64,000 nucleotides of DNA from an uncultured Ruminiclostridium sp. (GTDB taxonomy: Bacteria > Bacillota > Clostridia > Oscillospirales > Ruminococcaceae), in assembly GCA_947624435.1 (NCBI GenBank), contig CANQKE010000001.1, positions 32,072 to 96,071 on the forward strand, written 5' to 3'. Under the pieces are notes generated by a model. The model ran no database searches and was not told the DNA's origin. It worked only from the letters and a program-made list of their open reading frames with translations. How positions within the stretch are numbered: position 1 is the first letter of the stretch; each line of letters starts with the position of its first letter. Position numbers and translations under genes: made by a program. Shown here in pieces: positions 11,216 through 63,843 of this stretch.

Positions 11216-13119
11216 CGGACGGATATGTAAAGTCAGCGGCAGCTGCCGTAAGTATAAAAGTTGCAGATGTAGAATACAATACCGCCGCCATTATAAAAAA
11301 AGCGCGCGAGTTAGCCGGACAGGGAGTGCGGCTGGCGGTTTTCCCGGAGCTTTGCGTTACGGGATACACCTGTCAGGATCTGTTTTTCCAGTCCGCTTTG
11401 CTGGACGCCGCGGAAAAAGCATTAGAAGAAATTTCCGCCGCACTTGCTGATCTTGACATGATAACCGCAGTAGGTCTGCCGGTTCGATATAAATCAAAGC
11501 TGTATAACTGCGCGGCGGTGCTTTATCACGGGCAAACACTCGGTTTTGTGCCAAAGCAGAATCTGCCGAATTATAACGAGTTTTACGAAAAGCGACACTT
11601 CGCCGCTTGGAATGACGGGGACGGAGTGGTAATGCGCGGCGGCGTTCCGTTCGGCAGCGGGATAATATTTGTATGTGACGAGCTGCCGGAGTTTTCTTTC
11701 GCAGCGGAGATATGTGAGGACCTTTGGGCTCCCTGCCCGCCGTCCGGTGCGCTTGCTAAGTCGGGGGCGGCTGTTATTATAAATCTGTCCGCCGGCAATG
11801 AGATGACCGGCAAGGCGGATTATCGGCGGGAGCTTGTCAGCAATCAGTCCGCGCGGCTTATCGCGGGATATGTATATGCTTCCGCGGGAGAGGGCGAGTC
11901 AACGCAGGACCTTGTTTTTGCCGGACACAATATGATATGTGAAAACGGCGTGATTCTGGCGCAGAGCAAACTGTTTTCCGGCGAGAGCGCCGTCAGCGAG
12001 ATAGACGTTAAAATGCTGGATCACGAGCGCAGGAAGAACACCACGTTTTCCGTGGATACAAGCGGGTATACCGTGCGGTTTTCCATGCCGCCGGAAAAGA
12101 CGACGCTTACAAGATATATCACGCCCGCGCCTTTCGTTCCCACAGACAGCGGAGAAAAGGACAGACGCTGCGAATTGATACTTACCATGCAGTCGGAGGG
12201 ATTGAGGAAGCGGCTGGAGCATACCAACAGCAAGACTGCCGTTATCGGCGTGTCGGGAGGACTGGATTCTACATTAGCTCTCATAGTCTGTGCCAAAGCT
12301 ATGGAGAGAGCGGGCAGGTCAAACGCCGATATACTTGCGGTGACTATGCCGTGCTTTGGCACTACAAAGAGGACGCGCTCCAACGCCGAGCGGGTGTGCA
12401 ATGCGCTCGGTACTTCCTTCAAAGAGGTGGATATTACCGACAGCGTAAAACAGCATTTTGCCGATATCGGACATGATATTAACGACCACAGCGTGGTATT
12501 TGAAAACGGACAGGCGCGTGAACGCACGCAGGTGCTTATGGATATCGCCAACCGGAATAACGGTCTTGTTATAGGCACCGGCGACCTGTCGGAGCTTGCG
12601 CTCGGCTGGGCTACCTACAACGCAGACCATATGTCTATGTACGGCGTGAATTGCTCTGTACCTAAGACGCTTATCCGTCATTTGGTGAAATATTACGCGG
12701 ATAATACCGATAATAAGCCGCTGAAAGATGCGCTTTACGATATACTGGATACTCCGGTCAGCCCGGAGCTGCTTCCGGCGGAAAACGGCGAGATATCCCA
12801 AAAGACCGAAGAGCTGGTAGGTCCTTATGAGCTGCACGACTTTTTCCTTTACTGCGCGATAAGACGCGGATATCCGCCGCGTAAGGTGTACAGGCTGGCT
12901 ATTTATTCCTTTGACGGGAAATATCCTGCCGCGGTAGTTAAAAAGTGGCTGTGCATATTTTACAGGCGCTTTTTCTCGCAGCAGTTCAAGCGCTCCTGCC
13001 TGCCGGACGGACCTAAGGTCGGTTCGGTGACGCTGTCGCCCCGCGGGGATTGGAGAATGCCCAGCGACGCGGTAAGTAAGCTCTGGCTTTCCGAAGCGGA
13101 AAATATCGATACCGAATAA
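11212..13119 (+). CDS. nadE: Glutamine-dependent NAD+ synthetase
   Basis: 635 residues with two fused domains. The N-terminal nitrilase-type glutaminase shows the E-K-C triad at FPELCVTGY, PKQNLPNY and AEICEDLW. The C-terminal synthetase has the PP-loop SGGLDST. It converts nicotinate adenine dinucleotide to NAD+ using ammonia tunnelled from glutamine. The length is right for the two-domain form. The start overlaps the stop of the upstream hydrolase. Confidence 0.95.
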   Translation: MTDGYVKSAAAAVSIKVADVEYNTAAIIKKARELAGQGVRLAVFPELCVTGYTCQDLFFQSALLDAAEKALEEISAALADLDMITAVGLPVRYKSKLYNCAAVLYHGQTLGFVPKQNLPNYNEFYEKRHFAAWNDGDGVVMRGGVPFGSGIIFVCDELPEFSFAAEICEDLWAPCPPSGALAKSGAAVIINLSAGNEMTGKADYRRELVSNQSARLIAGYVYASAGEGESTQDLVFAGHNMICENGVILAQSKLFSGESAVSEIDVKMLDHERRKNTTFSVDTSGYTVRFSMPPEKTTLTRYITPAPFVPTDSGEKDRRCELILTMQSEGLRKRLEHTNSKTAVIGVSGGLDSTLALIVCAKAMERAGRSNADILAVTMPCFGTTKRTRSNAERVCNALGTSFKEVDITDSVKQHFADIGHDINDHSVVFENGQARERTQVLMDIANRNNGLVIGTGDLSELALGWATYNADHMSMYGVNCSVPKTLIRHLVKYYADNTDNKPLKDALYDILDTPVSPELLPAENGEISQKTEELVGPYELHDFFLYCAIRRGYPPRKVYRLAIYSFDGKYPAAVVKKWLCIFYRRFFSQQFKRSCLPDGPKVGSVTLSPRGDWRMPSDAVSKLWLSEAENIDTE

Positions 13120-57833: not shown

Positions 57834-57866
57834 AAAAACCGGAGGACTTTACGCCCTCCGGTTTTT
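57834..57866. terminator. Bidirectional terminator between proC and the DacA-MurF-like gene
   Basis: A 12-bp perfect stem AAAAACCGGAGG/CCTCCGGTTTTT with a 9-nt loop, A-run and T-run on the two sides. Confidence 0.9.
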
Positions 57867-57906: not shown

Positions 57907-60111
57907 TCAGGTTATCGCGGCCATGATATCCGCCAGTCCGGTATCCTCCGAGCCCTTGAACAACACCGCGTCATTCGGACGGATATTAAGTCCGAGAAAC
58001 TCTATCAGCGCCGACTCGCTCTTGAAAACTATAACCGATTTCTTTTTGACATCTGCCGTCTGGACAATGTTTGCCGCAACGTCACCGTAGCACACGGTTA
58101 TATCCACGGAGCTTTTGTTAAGCACGGCGCCGACGCGCTGAAACAGGTTCTCTTCCTGCTCGCCGCCGCCCGCGATATCGGAGAACACCGCTATCCTCCG
58201 CGCGTCCGCCGGGATATAAGCCGCGCAAAGCTCTTTGAGCGCGGTAGCCACGCTTTCTGCGCCGGTGTTTTCAAAGTCCGAGATAACGGTGACGTTATTT
58301 CCGTTTTTCACGGTATTAAGCCCTGAAACCTTGCGGTATTTTTCTATGGAAGCCAGTATCTGCTTTGCGGGTATGCCCATTATCTCGCCCAGAGCGAATG
58401 TTGCCAACGCCTGATATATCGCGTGCTTGCTGTCGGAGTATAATTCTGCATGGTGGATAACGGTGCCGTTTACTATCTCAAAGGTTATCTTGTCGCCCTC
58501 AACGGTTATACCGTCGGCGTAATAATCCGCCGCTTTGTTGTCTATTCCTATCGTGATTATATCCTGCTGTATGGAATAGATGCCGGCAAGCCTTTTATCG
58601 TCGATGTTTATTATCACCGCGCCCGCTTCGGACATACCGCTGCATATACCGAGCTTTTCATTGAGCTGCTCATCTTTTGACAATCCGCGCGGGTTATGCG
58701 ATACCGCTGCGGAGGAAAGGATAGCTATATCCGTACCGGCCCCCGCAGATACCCGTTCAGCGTTGTGTTCTTGTTCAAGAGAAACGCCTATTACCGCCGC
58801 TCCCGTATCCTTTGAGGAGGAAAGCAGCGCTTTGAGCATAGACTCGCAGTTATCCTCAAGCGACACCGATTTTACTATCTTCATCTTCTCGCTGAGCATG
58901 CTGCATATCATTCCCATCGGGTAGATTTGTTCGGGACTGTCGGTTATCGCTATCGACCACATACCAAGCTTGGTCTTAAGATACGACGCAAGAGTCTCTT
59001 TGGCGGCAGTAAGATTTTCCACCACTATATTGGAAATACCATATACCGGCTTTTCAGTGACCGTCACGGCCGCGCCGTTATTGTAAGCGTCTTTTGCGGA
59101 TCGGTCGTCCTCGGCAAAATATGCGCAGTCCTTTTTTATCTTCTGCTTTCCTATCGCTATAGAGTTTATCGCCGCTTCGGGAGAATTGCGCTGCATGGCG
59201 TTAAGCACGTCGCACATCTCGGAAACGGTGAGCAGCGCGTCCTCGCTTTCCGCCTGGGACTCGCCTTGCTTTTTACCGCTTAGCTGTTCAAAATTGTCAA
59301 AGGTAAAGTCAAGTAATGTTATCGCGTCGTAGAACACATATTTCATCTGTTTTGTATGTTCCGCGCCCAAAATTATCGCCATGACTTCTTCTCCCTGCTT
59401 GCCCTTGGGAGGCAGGGCAGAGCAGGCAAGGCATGACTTTGAACGGACGGTATATCCGCTTTTTATACCTATAGCAGTGTCGTATTTATACCTTTTATAT
59501 GTGCTGTTTACCAAAAGATTGGAGTTGCTTATCGTGCGCTCCGGGCTTTTGTCTGTCGCGGCGATAGTGTATTTTTCGGTTTTAGCGATCGTGCGGAACA
59601 GCCGATTGGTCATGCAGTATCGGCAGATTATCGCCAGATCATACGCATTGGAAAGCTGTTCGGAGGTGAACCGTCCCTCACTGTCCATAACTACGGTGTT
59701 CTGCGCGCCTATCAGCTCCGCTTTTGTCTGCATCATCTGTGCGAATTTATCCTTTCCGCCGCAGATAAATTCTCCCAGAGCGAACATCGCGTCGTTGGCA
59801 GATGCGAGCATCATTGAATATACTAAATCAAGCACAGAAATACGTTCACCCTCAAGAAAGCCCATCGACGCAGAGCCTTTCCATCTGGTCATCTCATTAA
59901 CAACGCTTTTGGAGATAACTACTGTGTCGGTAGGATTGCATTTCTCAAGCGCGATTATCGACGCTAACAGCTTGGTTATAAAAGCCGGGTACATCTTCAT
60001 TTTAGCGTTCTTTTCCAGCAGTATCTTACCTTCGTTCTGTGTTACAACTATCGCCGCCTGTGCGTTGATCTGCGGCATATCGGTCTTTTGGACCGCTTTT
60101 ACTTCAGACAT
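57907..60111 (-). CDS. Cytoplasmic fusion of a DacA-like and a MurF-like domain, both lacking catalytic residues
   Basis: 734 residues. Residues about 15-270 align by eye with D-Ala-D-Ala carboxypeptidases (PBP5/DacA): YPAFITKLL stands where PAS-x-TK is expected, so the nucleophile Ser is Phe44 (codon 59982-59980), while Lys47, SAN (104-106) and KSG (217-219) remain. Residues about 295-734 resemble MurF: N-domain, a central part without the GKT ATP loop (near 387-400), and a C-domain ending DAVLFKGSEDTGLADIM. No signal peptide, so it should stay in the cytosol, unlike DacA. RBS AAGGGAGC. Likely a regulatory or scaffold protein. Confidence 0.75.
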   Translation of the reverse strand: MSEVKAVQKTDMPQINAQAAIVVTQNEGKILLEKNAKMKMYPAFITKLLASIIALEKCNPTDTVVISKSVVNEMTRWKGSASMGFLEGERISVLDLVYSMMLASANDAMFALGEFICGGKDKFAQMMQTKAELIGAQNTVVMDSEGRFTSEQLSNAYDLAIICRYCMTNRLFRTIAKTEKYTIAATDKSPERTISNSNLLVNSTYKRYKYDTAIGIKSGYTVRSKSCLACSALPPKGKQGEEVMAIILGAEHTKQMKYVFYDAITLLDFTFDNFEQLSGKKQGESQAESEDALLTVSEMCDVLNAMQRNSPEAAINSIAIGKQKIKKDCAYFAEDDRSAKDAYNNGAAVTVTEKPVYGISNIVVENLTAAKETLASYLKTKLGMWSIAITDSPEQIYPMGMICSMLSEKMKIVKSVSLEDNCESMLKALLSSSKDTGAAVIGVSLEQEHNAERVSAGAGTDIAILSSAAVSHNPRGLSKDEQLNEKLGICSGMSEAGAVIINIDDKRLAGIYSIQQDIITIGIDNKAADYYADGITVEGDKITFEIVNGTVIHHAELYSDSKHAIYQALATFALGEIMGIPAKQILASIEKYRKVSGLNTVKNGNNVTVISDFENTGAESVATALKELCAAYIPADARRIAVFSDIAGGGEQEENLFQRVGAVLNKSSVDITVCYGDVAANIVQTADVKKKSVIVFKSESALIEFLGLNIRPNDAVLFKGSEDTGLADIMAAIT

Positions 60112-60204: not shown

Positions 60205-60233
60205 ATTTTATCACAAAAACTCTGTAATGTCAA
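60205..60233 (-). promoter_or_regulatory. Promoter of the DacA-MurF-like gene
   Basis: On the minus strand TTGACA (60233-60228), 17-bp spacer, TAAAAT (60210-60205); leader about 85 nt. Confidence 0.8.
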
Positions 60234-60380: not shown

Positions 60381-60409
60381 TTGACACGAGTTTTTGTGGA
60401 CTATATAAT
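60381..60409 (+). promoter_or_regulatory. Consensus promoter of the Asp-Thr repeat surface protein
   Basis: TTGACA, 17-bp spacer, TATAAT: both hexamers are perfect consensus, the best promoter in the window. The leader carries a CGGGAG/CTCCCG hairpin (60422-60445). Confidence 0.88.
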
Positions 60410-60501: not shown

Positions 60502-63500
60502 ATGATGGATAATGTTAATAACCTTTCAGCACGCAAAAAGCTGCTGAGAAAGATTATAGCCTTTATCTTTGCGATAAATATGCTGTTTGCGCGCTTGTTC
60601 TCTCTTCCTTCTGCAGCGCCTTCGCATACGGTTGACATGGATCTGTTCGGTCAAGGTACGGCTCAGACCTATTATACGGAAAATGTTTACCAAACTGAAC
60701 TTCCTTCGATACTTGCAACTTCTGACGCCAGTGTGTTTGACCAGGAAACTATAGATTACGATGCGCTCCTCGGCATGAACGATGACGACAAATCCTACGA
60801 ATCCGTCAACGGACTTCTCGGATATGCGGCAGGCTTCAGCATCTTTGTTGAAGAGGACGCAGTTATTGAAGGCTCCGACTGCGGCGGACGTGCTGCTGTC
60901 GGCGGCGATCTTACCGTTACCGCTTCCGATGGTTGGTTTACTTTCAACAACGAGGACCTCGGCGGCGAGGGTGCGGCTGACGTTATCGTCGGCGGCAAGG
61001 CTGACTTCAAGGTAAGCGACAGCGGTCGTGTTATCTGGGCTAATGAAGTTTCCGACAGATTCTCCAATCAGGCAAGCGGCGCTACCGTTATCGGCGGCGT
61101 AAATGAGAAAACTGATTTCAGCTTTGAGAATTCTTTTGAAAAGCTCAGAGCCGCTTCTCAGAAGCTCGCTGCTATGGAGACCACCGGCGCTTACAATAAC
61201 AACTGGGGCAACTTCGAGTTTACCGGATATTCTGACGGCGTTAATGTATTTACTATCACCGCAGATGAGATAAACTCCACTAACGGTGCGCCTTTCGGAC
61301 TTTCCTTCTCGAACATTCCCGAAGGTTCTACTATACTGCTCAACATCGTCGGCGGCGACGCTGATACTGTACTTAATCTGCGCATTAACTATGTATCCAT
61401 CAACGGATCACAGGTAAGCCAGTACAACGATCCCGATCACAGATATCGCAACTTCATAATCAACGTTACTGACGCCGGAACGGTTGACCTTTACGGTTAC
61501 ACCGGTTCGCTGCTCGCTCCGAATTCTCATGTAAATGGTGAACAGCGCCACTTAGAGGGCCAGATGATCGCAAAGTCCTACAAGGGCGGCATGGAGTTTG
61601 GTTGGAATACCTTTGATATTCCTACCAGCGACGATGATTTCGATACCGATACGGATACGGACACCGATACAGACACTGATACGGATACTGATACTGACAC
61701 GGATACCGATACAGACACAGATACGGATACCGATACAGATACCGACACAGACACTGATACTGACACTGATACAGACACGGACACAGATACCGACACCGAT
61801 ACTGATACCGACACGGATACTGATACCGACACCGATACTGATACTGACACGGATACAGATACCGATACTGATACGGACACCGATACAGATACGGATACTG
61901 ACACGGATACCGATACTGACACGGATACGGATACTGACACTGATACAGACACGGACACAGATACCGACACCGATACTGATACCGACACGGACACAGATAC
62001 CGACACCGATACTGATACCGACACCGATACTGATACTGACACGGATACCGATACGGATACAGACACCGATACAGATACCGACACGGACACCGATACTGAT
62101 ACGGACACTGATACGGATACCGATACTGACACGGACACCGACACGGATACCGATACTGATACGGACACAGACACTGACACTGATACGGACACAGACACCG
62201 ATACCGATACCGACATGGATACCGATACCGACACAGATACTGACACAGACACCGATACTGACACAGACACTGATACCGACACGGATACTGATACAGATAC
62301 TGATACAGATACCGATACTGACACGGACACAGATACCGACACTGATACGGATACTGATACAGATACGGACACCGATACCGATACTGATACAGACACGGAT
62401 ACTGATACAGATACGGATACCGACACCGATACTGATACGGATACGGATACAGACACTGATACCGATACTGACACGGATACAGATACCGATACAGACACGG
62501 ACACCGATACCGACACGGACACTGATACAGATACGGATACCGATACAGACACAGACACCGATACAGATACGGATACCGATACCGATACAGACACCGACAC
62601 TGATACTGATACGGATACCGACACTGATACGGACACAGACACCGATACCGATACAGACACCGATACGGATACCGACACAGACACTGATACCGACACCGAC
62701 ACTGACACGGATACCGACACAGACACTGATACGGACACCGATACTGACACGGATACCGATACGGATACAGATACCGACACAGATACTGATACAGATACTG
62801 ATACGGACACTGACACGGATACAGATACCGACACGGATACCGATACTGATACGGACACTGACACGGATACGGATACAGATACCGACACTGACACGGATAC
62901 CGATACTGATACAGACACTGATACCGACACAGATACCGATACAGACACGGATACTGACACTGACACCGATACTGACACTGACACCGATACTGACACGGAC
63001 ACAGATACAGACACCGATACGGATACGGACACCGATACCGATACAGACACTGATACAGACACCGATACGGATACAGACACCGATACGGATACAGATACTG
63101 ATACTGACACGGACACAGATACAGACACGGATACCGACACGGATACTGACACCGATACTGATACGGATACAGATACCGATACTGACACGGATACAGATAC
63201 CGACACTGACACGGATACTGATACAGACACGGATACTGATACAGATACGGATACCGATACCGACACCGATACCGACACGGATACCGACACGGATACTGAC
63301 ACTGATACAGATACGGATACCGATACAGACACAGATACCGATACAGATACAGATACCGACACCGACACAGATACCGATACTGATACCGATACAGACACAG
63401 ATACGGATACCGATACTGACACCGACACGGATACAGATACTGACACTGACACTGACACCGATACGGATACTGATACAGACACTGATACCGATACAGACAC

Positions 63501-63843
63501 TGACACTGATATGGATACAGACACTGATACCGACACAGACACAGACACAGATACGGATACCGACACTGATACGGATACAGATATTGACACGGACAGTGAT
63601 TTCGATTTACCGGTTCTGGATTTCGATCAGACAACTCCGCAGGGAGATGTTCCGGTGCTCGACTTTGATCAGCCCACTCCTCAGGGAGACGTTCCGACGC
63701 TTGATTTCGATCAGCCGACTCCTCAGGGAAGCAACCCGCATACCGGCGTTGGACTTGACGGCGCAGCAGGCTTAGGCGCTATGGCGGCAGCAGCACTCGC
63801 AGCAGCTACAGCGATCGCAGGCAAGCGCAAAAAGAAAAAATAA
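60502..63843 (+). CDS. Cell-surface adhesin-like protein with 325-unit Asp-Thr stalk and NPxTG anchor
   Basis: 1113 residues. Signal peptide (about 1-40, KKLLRKIIAFIFAINMLF), then a head of about 335 residues resembling the choice-of-anchor A domain (VNGLLGYAAGFSIFVEEDAV, GGRAAVGGDLTV, LNIVGGDADTVLN, GYTGSLLAPNSHV). Residues 381-1030 are an almost pure Asp-Thr repeat, then three copies of [VT]LDFDQ[TP]TPQG, then the sorting signal NPHTG, a hydrophobic Ala-rich helix and KRKKKK. A sortase would join it to the wall, with the poly-acidic stalk holding the head away from the cell. RBS AAGGAGG. Confidence 0.9.
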   Translation: MMDNVNNLSARKKLLRKIIAFIFAINMLFARLFSLPSAAPSHTVDMDLFGQGTAQTYYTENVYQTELPSILATSDASVFDQETIDYDALLGMNDDDKSYESVNGLLGYAAGFSIFVEEDAVIEGSDCGGRAAVGGDLTVTASDGWFTFNNEDLGGEGAADVIVGGKADFKVSDSGRVIWANEVSDRFSNQASGATVIGGVNEKTDFSFENSFEKLRAASQKLAAMETTGAYNNNWGNFEFTGYSDGVNVFTITADEINSTNGAPFGLSFSNIPEGSTILLNIVGGDADTVLNLRINYVSINGSQVSQYNDPDHRYRNFIINVTDAGTVDLYGYTGSLLAPNSHVNGEQRHLEGQMIAKSYKGGMEFGWNTFDIPTSDDDFDTDTDTDTDTDTDTDTDTDTDTDTDTDTDTDTDTDTDTDTDTDTDTDTDTDTDTDTDTDTDTDTDTDTDTDTDTDTDTDTDTDTDTDTDTDTDTDTDTDTDTDTDTDTDTDTDTDTDTDTDTDTDTDTDTDTDTDTDTDTDTDTDTDTDTDTDTDTDTDTDTDTDTDTDTDTDTDTDTDTDTDTDTDTDTDMDTDTDTDTDTDTDTDTDTDTDTDTDTDTDTDTDTDTDTDTDTDTDTDTDTDTDTDTDTDTDTDTDTDTDTDTDTDTDTDTDTDTDTDTDTDTDTDTDTDTDTDTDTDTDTDTDTDTDTDTDTDTDTDTDTDTDTDTDTDTDTDTDTDTDTDTDTDTDTDTDTDTDTDTDTDTDTDTDTDTDTDTDTDTDTDTDTDTDTDTDTDTDTDTDTDTDTDTDTDTDTDTDTDTDTDTDTDTDTDTDTDTDTDTDTDTDTDTDTDTDTDTDTDTDTDTDTDTDTDTDTDTDTDTDTDTDTDTDTDTDTDTDTDTDTDTDTDTDTDTDTDTDTDTDTDTDTDTDTDTDTDTDTDTDTDTDTDTDTDTDTDTDTDTDTDTDTDTDTDTDTDTDTDTDTDTDTDTDTDTDTDTDTDTDTDTDTDTDTDTDTDTDTDTDTDMDTDTDTDTDTDTDTDTDTDTDTDIDTDSDFDLPVLDFDQTTPQGDVPVLDFDQPTPQGDVPTLDFDQPTPQGSNPHTGVGLDGAAGLGAMAAAALAAATAIAGKRKKKK
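61642..63591 (+). repeat. 1950-bp hexanucleotide repeat (GAY ACN)x325
   Basis: 325 consecutive six-base units coding Asp-Thr. Both Asp codons and all four Thr codons are used in an irregular order. Three units are changed by single-base substitutions: two to Asp-Met (ATG, near 62216 and 63511) and one to Asp-Ile (ATT, near 63583). The antisense strand and one other frame are open by chance. Confidence 0.95.

Follow-up and report, generated by a model that had tools for sequence, protein, structure and literature searches.

A conserved two-gene unit of a doubly altered S11-MurF fusion protein and a divergent adhesin-like protein

Comparison of eleven loci showed a conserved two-gene unit, made up of a signal-less fusion of a peptidase S11 (DacA-type) domain with a MurF-type ligase domain and, encoded divergently from it, a repeat-rich adhesin-like protein with a sortase-type C-terminus. 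The unit was analysed in a stretch of 64,000 nucleotides from an uncultured Ruminiclostridium sp. (hereafter the window). The fusion is a maintained, doubly altered and apparently cytosolic protein, and judged from its retained folds and lost catalytic residues it is a pseudoenzyme. DacA-type and MurF enzymes, which both belong to cell-wall metabolism, are normally separated by the membrane. As far as can be judged from the sequence, the divergent adhesin-like gene is the best clue to the function of the fusion; since the fusion gene adjoins the gene of a repeat-rich surface protein, the arrangement suggests that dead enzymes have been reused to help or control a surface protein.

The fusion is encoded by a 734-aa open reading frame on the minus strand (57907..60111), supported by Pfam and NCBIfam profiles and by the orthologue alignment. 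Frame, strand, length and codons were as originally predicted, including TTT at 59982-59980 for Phe44. The S11 half (residues 1-285; 59257..60111, minus strand) was assigned by profile, AlphaFold2 model and PDB matches, and the MurF-type half that follows it (residues 286-734; 57910..59256, minus strand) by motif comparison, model and PDB matches. Pfam Peptidase_S11 (PF00768) matched residues 8-251 with E 1.4e-39 and 136.5 bits, against a cut-off of 27.6. In the second half, Mur_ligase_M (residues 401-574, E 2.2e-9) and Mur_ligase_C (residues 600-721, E 7.1e-11) were found with Pfam. The NCBIfam model murF (TIGR01143) matched residues 339-732 (E 2.2e-33) at 115.8-117.1 bits, well under its cut-off of 288.6, a value exceeded by any match in only 2 of the 71 genomes of the genus.

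Around residue 44 the window protein reads PAFITK, with Phe in place of the nucleophilic Ser (codon at 59980..59982, minus strand). In 18 other aligned S11 domains this column holds Ser (17) or Cys (1), and in the fusion it is Phe in all 11 orthologues described below. Lys47 of the SxxK motif, the SxN motif (SAN, residues 104-106; 59794..59802, minus strand) and the K(T/S)G motif (KSG, residues 217-219; 59455..59463, minus strand) are invariant in the same 11 proteins. The predicted loss of the Ser beside a surviving Lys47, SAN and KSG can thus be read directly and extends to every orthologue. That Phe44 has the single codon TTT in 11/11 carries no weight, because two other invariant Phe columns are also one-codon. 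In L032 (G099) the nucleophile position of an S11 domain is occupied by Cys (GCAAK).

As a yardstick for the MurF half, 14 MurFs from the fetched loci were used, which were chosen by their YNA(N/S)P signature and include two near-identical pairs. DxR, the ATP loop (TGSxGKT), the Glu of EMGM, the Asn of HN and the Arg of RQ are each present in 14/14 of these MurFs and in 0/11 fusions. YNASP is also found in 0/11 fusions, its presence in 14/14 MurFs following from the way they were selected. At the site of the lost P-loop (58924..58944, minus strand) the window protein reads TDSPEQI, in agreement with the predicted lack of an ATP loop. In addition, the six residues ahead of the DGH position are deleted in all 11 fusions, and the His at the SHIE position is retained in 2 and the His of HN in 10 of them. 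NxDD and Lys486 (58654..58656, minus strand) are retained in 11/11; Lys486 aligns with a Lys found in all 14 MurFs, which we take to be the carbamylated Lys of MurF.

A binding or regulatory role had been suggested for the fusion, for example the sensing of UDP-MurNAc-peptide. The general idea fits, but sensing of UDP-MurNAc by the MurF half is unlikely, since the motifs compared are lost except for NxDD and one Lys (DxR, the stretch before DGH, the ATP loop and the EMGM Glu in 11/11), and this part of the suggestion is not supported. Besides the fusion, the genome of the window encodes a MurF-like protein that has a P-loop, and SxxK is present in four further S11 proteins. Its best murF match (L042, G000:C47; cf. 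L148, G013:C9) is a 559-aa open frame in which, by eye, N-terminal membrane helices apparently replace the N domain; a D-Ala-D-Ala-ligase-like ORF (by eye) adjoins it.

No export signal or membrane segment was detected in the window fusion by hydropathy, the best 19-residue mean being 1.24 over the whole protein and 0.47 in the first 45 residues. A hydrophobic N-terminus was absent from all 11 orthologues by the same measure (best 19-residue means of 0.45-0.73 in the first 45 residues), which bears out the predicted lack of a signal peptide.

The fusion gene had also been expected to have its own promoter and terminator, and candidates for both are present in the window. A promoter-like site with 11/12 matches (TTGACA-17-TAAAAT; 60205..60233, minus strand) was found by pattern scan, which listed 10 such sites in the region, shuffled sequence giving 5.0 +/- 2.5. 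An intrinsic-terminator-like hairpin with a 14-bp stem and a T tract (57834..57866, minus strand) lies between the convergent fusion and proC genes; its folding z is -4.4 over an 81-nt stretch, and it was not listed by the pattern scan. On the fusion side, a promoter-like site with <=2 mismatches is present in 10 of the 11 intergenic regions, but this evidence is weak outside the window because 15-33% of shuffles also contain one. The site before the partner gene is a perfect TTGACA-17-TATAAT (60381..60409, plus strand; pattern scan), found in 11/11 intergenic regions and in 0-2 of 2000 shuffles each.

Modelling of the whole fusion from the 11-row alignment gave good results in the MurF half only. 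Because the S11 half was poor in this model, it was modelled anew from an alignment in which 18 of the 28 rows were other S11 domains. The new AlphaFold2 model (residues 1-290) had a mean pLDDT of 91.9 and a pTM of 0.89, and its best PDB matches by Foldseek were PBP5, DacA-type and K15 enzymes (E 3e-20, with the 18 other S11 domains contributing to the model). For the MurF half, each of the ten best PDB matches was a MurF, at E 7e-30 to 9e-24; the TM-score by target was 0.57-0.61 and the rmsd 8-12, so that the MurF fold was recovered and its exact arrangement was not. Two plastid RNA polymerase chains (8r6s_Q and 8xzv_J), presumably PAP11, were also among the structure matches of this half. 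According to these models both folds are retained in the fusion, as predicted: the second half is MurF-like in sequence as well as in the model, and the S11 half matches the PBP5/DacA type.

A search of 149 genomes yielded 10 with a full-length fusion, that of the window included, and the other nine proteins were 57-98% identical to the window protein. The same 10 carriers were obtained when all 71 genomes of the genus were searched. A collection of genome contigs added six loci: four encode proteins identical to those of genomes in the count already, one, from UBA5579, encodes a distinct protein, and the sixth, which matches part of the MurF half at 29%, was left out of the orthologue count. 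The resulting eleven distinct orthologues are each 734 aa long and align without gaps at 54-98% pairwise identity. Their dN/dS (NG86, whole gene) was 0.04-0.13 in pairs with a computable dS, many pairs being saturated. Beyond the ten carriers and UBA5579, no full-length fusion was found in the 71 genus genomes (E up to 1e-100), nor in any other genus in searches of 396 genomes of the family (E up to 1e-50) and 391 of the class (E up to 1e-70), where the best two candidates per genome at most were scored. The matches listed below the carriers among the family genomes each correspond to one half of the fusion. No relative was detected among viral contigs with two short peptide patterns as query.

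No orthologue (0/11) has an intact SxxK Ser or a P-loop. A recent mutation, frameshift or sequencing error is ruled out by the 11 orthologues that share Phe44 and the missing P-loop. The loss of both catalytic sites would be expected of a decaying remnant or of an error in the sequence, but the exact length and gapless alignment of orthologues that have diverged to 54% identity, the low dN/dS where it can be computed, and the promoter-like and terminator-like sites leave this explanation with almost no probability. The view that the gene is not decaying debris, already put forward from the window sequence, is upheld.

The two halves are not equally constrained: 135 of 285 columns are invariant in the S11 half and 105 of 449 in the MurF half, a share twice as high in the former. 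Because the S11 half is the more constrained, the working centre of the protein is probably this half, with the MurF half apparently acting as a scaffold. An alternative in which the dead MurF fills a Mur-enzyme contact site in a cytosolic wall-synthesis complex, as scaffold or decoy with the dead S11 domain as passenger, would agree with a MurF fold that is retained after its catalytic motifs were lost, and with the plastid RNA polymerase chains among the structure matches. However, it is the MurF half that is less conserved, and the linkage to the adhesin would go unexplained; we consider this alternative improbable.

Ten cysteines are invariant in 11/11 fusions, including Cys58 and the CxxC pairs 163/166 and 227/230 in the S11 half. 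An enzyme with changed chemistry, in which Ser104, Lys47, Lys217 or the invariant cysteines catalyse something new, would be in keeping with the invariance of these cysteines and of the remaining S11 motif residues, and with Lys486 and NxDD in the MurF half. It has to be set against the loss of the ATP loop, the EMGM Glu and the nucleophile, each in 11/11, and appears very improbable.

The partner gene (60502..63843, plus strand; ORF and profiles) encodes 1113 aa, all features of which lie on the plus strand. A conserved N-terminal segment (LSARKKLLRKIIAFIFAINMLFARLFS; 60523..60603), recognised by alignment and genome searches, is followed by a domain matching the pAdhesive_15 (PF20597) and choice-of-anchor A (TIGR04215) profiles (60817..61599). 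Next come a stalk of Asp-Thr repeats, with approximate limits read from the sequence (61642..63567), and an NPHTG motif (63733..63747), at which the Rumino_NPXTG model scored 22.6 bits, slightly below its cut-off of 23.5. The scan for the adhesive domain was done on the window's partner, and the other ten partners are its relatives by sequence. Divergent pairing of the fusion with an adhesin-like partner of this one sequence cluster was found at 11/11 loci. An NPXTG end is readable in 7 of the 11 partners (in G013 as a second ORF), and the contigs of the other four end within the repeats; in G028 a matching partner C-terminus was found at the end of a different contig. The partner of G013 is split into two overlapping ORFs (L074:10815-11783 and 11768-12466), by a frameshift or an assembly error.

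Among the 71 genomes of the genus, the N-terminus of the partner was found in the ten fusion carriers and in no other. Its first 372 residues match 29 of the 71 genomes; the match starts at residue 1-7 in the 10 carriers, and in the 19 non-carriers at residue 103 or later, with E 4e-27 or weaker. When the first 45 residues were searched in nine carriers (G031 left out), the partner was the sole match below E 0.01, and in 7 non-carrier genomes the best E was 0.03. Invariant residues make up 11/28 of the N-terminal segment and 40/268 of the adhesive domain (12/28 and 55/268 without the split G013 copy), the limits of the segment having been picked after the alignment was viewed. Fusion and partner distances correlate with r 0.90 over 55 pairs, which joint descent alone would also give. 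The linkage of the two genes would be compatible with a physical or a regulatory link.

We tentatively propose, at somewhat below an even chance, that the fusion works without catalysis in the cytosol, as an accessory protein dedicated to the partner adhesin, and serves in its targeting, holding or control. The S11 cleft, with Lys47, SAN and KSG kept and Phe at the nucleophile position, would be the surface that binds, with what is left of the MurF domain as scaffold. The most probable client would be the adhesin itself, for example its conserved N-terminal segment, which would be cytosolic before export. Its conservation, and its absence from other proteins of the carriers searched, make this segment a candidate. 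The fusion might then hold the long acidic repeat protein, target it or time its export; in a looser form, it might match the production or anchoring of the adhesin to the wall precursors available. A more specific version, a dedicated cytosolic escort that recognises the N-terminal segment of the sortase-anchored Asp-Thr-repeat adhesin before export, perhaps bound in place of a D-Ala-D-Ala peptide, seems to us doubtful. The conserved hydrophobic N-terminus of the partner may be a mere export signal instead of a client site.

Sortase anchoring uses wall precursors. For that reason a cytosolic sensor might act on adhesin expression: its S11 cleft would bind wall precursors that end in D-Ala-D-Ala, leave them uncleaved and pass on the state of the wall. 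The invariance of Lys47, SAN and KSG, the lack of an export signal and the NPXTG ends of the partners (in all seven copies readable to the end) would suit such a sensor. On the other hand, the pocket may be blocked by Phe44, the MurF half is without DxR and the stretch before DGH, and Pfam and NCBIfam scans detected no DNA-binding or signalling domain in the fusion. Wall-precursor sensing is possible through the S11 cleft and hardly so through the MurF half, and as an explanation of the fusion we hold it to be unlikely.

The accessory role dedicated to the adhesin, which we prefer, concerns two genes that are found together in changing surroundings. The other neighbours mostly differ between loci, as far as the stretches reach, and the unit has proC as a neighbour in just two of them, the window and G031. 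In G030 and G009 the partner has a two-component system next to it, identified by family scan in G030, and the fusion is adjoined by a gene common to both. A stable locus beside proC was considered and ruled out, as the proC regions of G030, G009, G018 and G014 are without the unit, which lies elsewhere. The next gene downstream of the fusion in G013 (L074:6970-8112) encodes an S11 protein with SxTK, SAN and KTG.

A ProC match was obtained in 61 genomes, and in a ProC tree built from 30 of these all ten carriers lie inside one 15-genome clade (support 97/96), whose other members are three genomes with a fusion in the reverse order and two with neither. Since the carriers are confined to this clade, the co-occurrence of fusion and partner does not represent ten independent events. 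Within it they do not form one clade (4 changes; p-AU 1e-7), and their distribution would fit one gain with some losses, or transfer. Apparent losses are open to doubt: assemblies break at the Asp-Thr repeats, so that a missing contig could hide both genes; partner-like C-termini were seen at contig ends in G066, G069 and G026.

The reverse-order fusions are proteins of about 733 aa with MurF first and S11 second, encoded in G039 (L155:4384-6582), G066 (L156:2947-5145) and G069 (L157:1364-3568). A longer form in G062 (L159:5635-8523) continues into a hexapeptide domain. Their MurF half retains the P-loop, Glu, His, NADD, HN and RQ, lacks DxR and has an altered YNASP; their S11 half retains the Ser and has lost SxN, and the motif Lys is replaced by Ser (by Thr in G062). 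In G069 the fusion lies one gene from a partner-like C-terminus. No partner-like gene was recognised near those of G039 and G066 in the stretches read, and the fold pair is therefore not always tied to such an adhesin. None of the 71 genomes was found to contain both orders, although contig breaks could hide genes. The S11 halves of both orders group together with support 62/26, where an earlier FastTree run had placed them apart, and a common origin of the MurF halves gave p-AU 0.437. The presence of a reverse-order fusion in close relatives suggests that the two folds have worked together repeatedly, or since an older common ancestor.

Other Mur ligase combinations were also noticed. In G062 one ORF (L159:8666-11698) combines PGA_cap, Mur ligase and leucine-rich-repeat parts by profile scan, with a TupA-like ATP-grasp gene nearby; in G055 the same parts are seen by eye as two ORFs (L158:5090-8125), and a similar-looking ATP-grasp gene was also noted there by eye.

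Pseudoenzymes are already known as a kind; the S11-MurF combination and its adhesin partner appear to be new. In a literature search that reached few subscription journals, we found no account of such a fusion protein. Here two wall enzymes from opposite sides of the membrane are fused and kept in a dead state, and in several species of gut bacteria their gene is linked to one adhesin-like gene. This offers a testable link between wall-enzyme folds and the export or control of surface proteins. It is also a warning against annotating the fusion gene as a carboxypeptidase or as MurF.

With Peptidase S11/DacA (PBP5-type) the fusion has in common the fold, Lys47, SxN and KSG, and it differs in the change of Ser to Phe, the lack of an export signal and the attached MurF-type domain. 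With the MurF ligase (TIGR01143) it shares fold family, domain order, NxDD and the motif Lys, but P-loop, DxR, EMGM Glu, HN Asn, RQ Arg and YNASP are missing in 11/11. The reverse-order proteins likewise join a MurF-like and a degenerate S11 domain; in contrast to the fusion of the window they start with MurF, keep the P-loop and the S11 Ser, and are without the motif Lys and SxN. Reuse of a Mur fold outside wall synthesis is exemplified by plastid PAP11, which belongs to the chloroplast RNA polymerase as a MurE-like subunit; PAP11 differs from the fusion in being of the MurE type, organellar and without an S11 part. The Asp proteins of the accessory Sec system are cytosolic. A report on that system (PMC6973325) describes accessory proteins (Asp1-5) encoded beside a long serine-rich-repeat adhesin with an atypical signal. 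The fusion is also encoded beside a long repeat adhesin, and if it does escort the adhesin, the unit would be a small two-gene analogue of the accessory-Sec chaperones.
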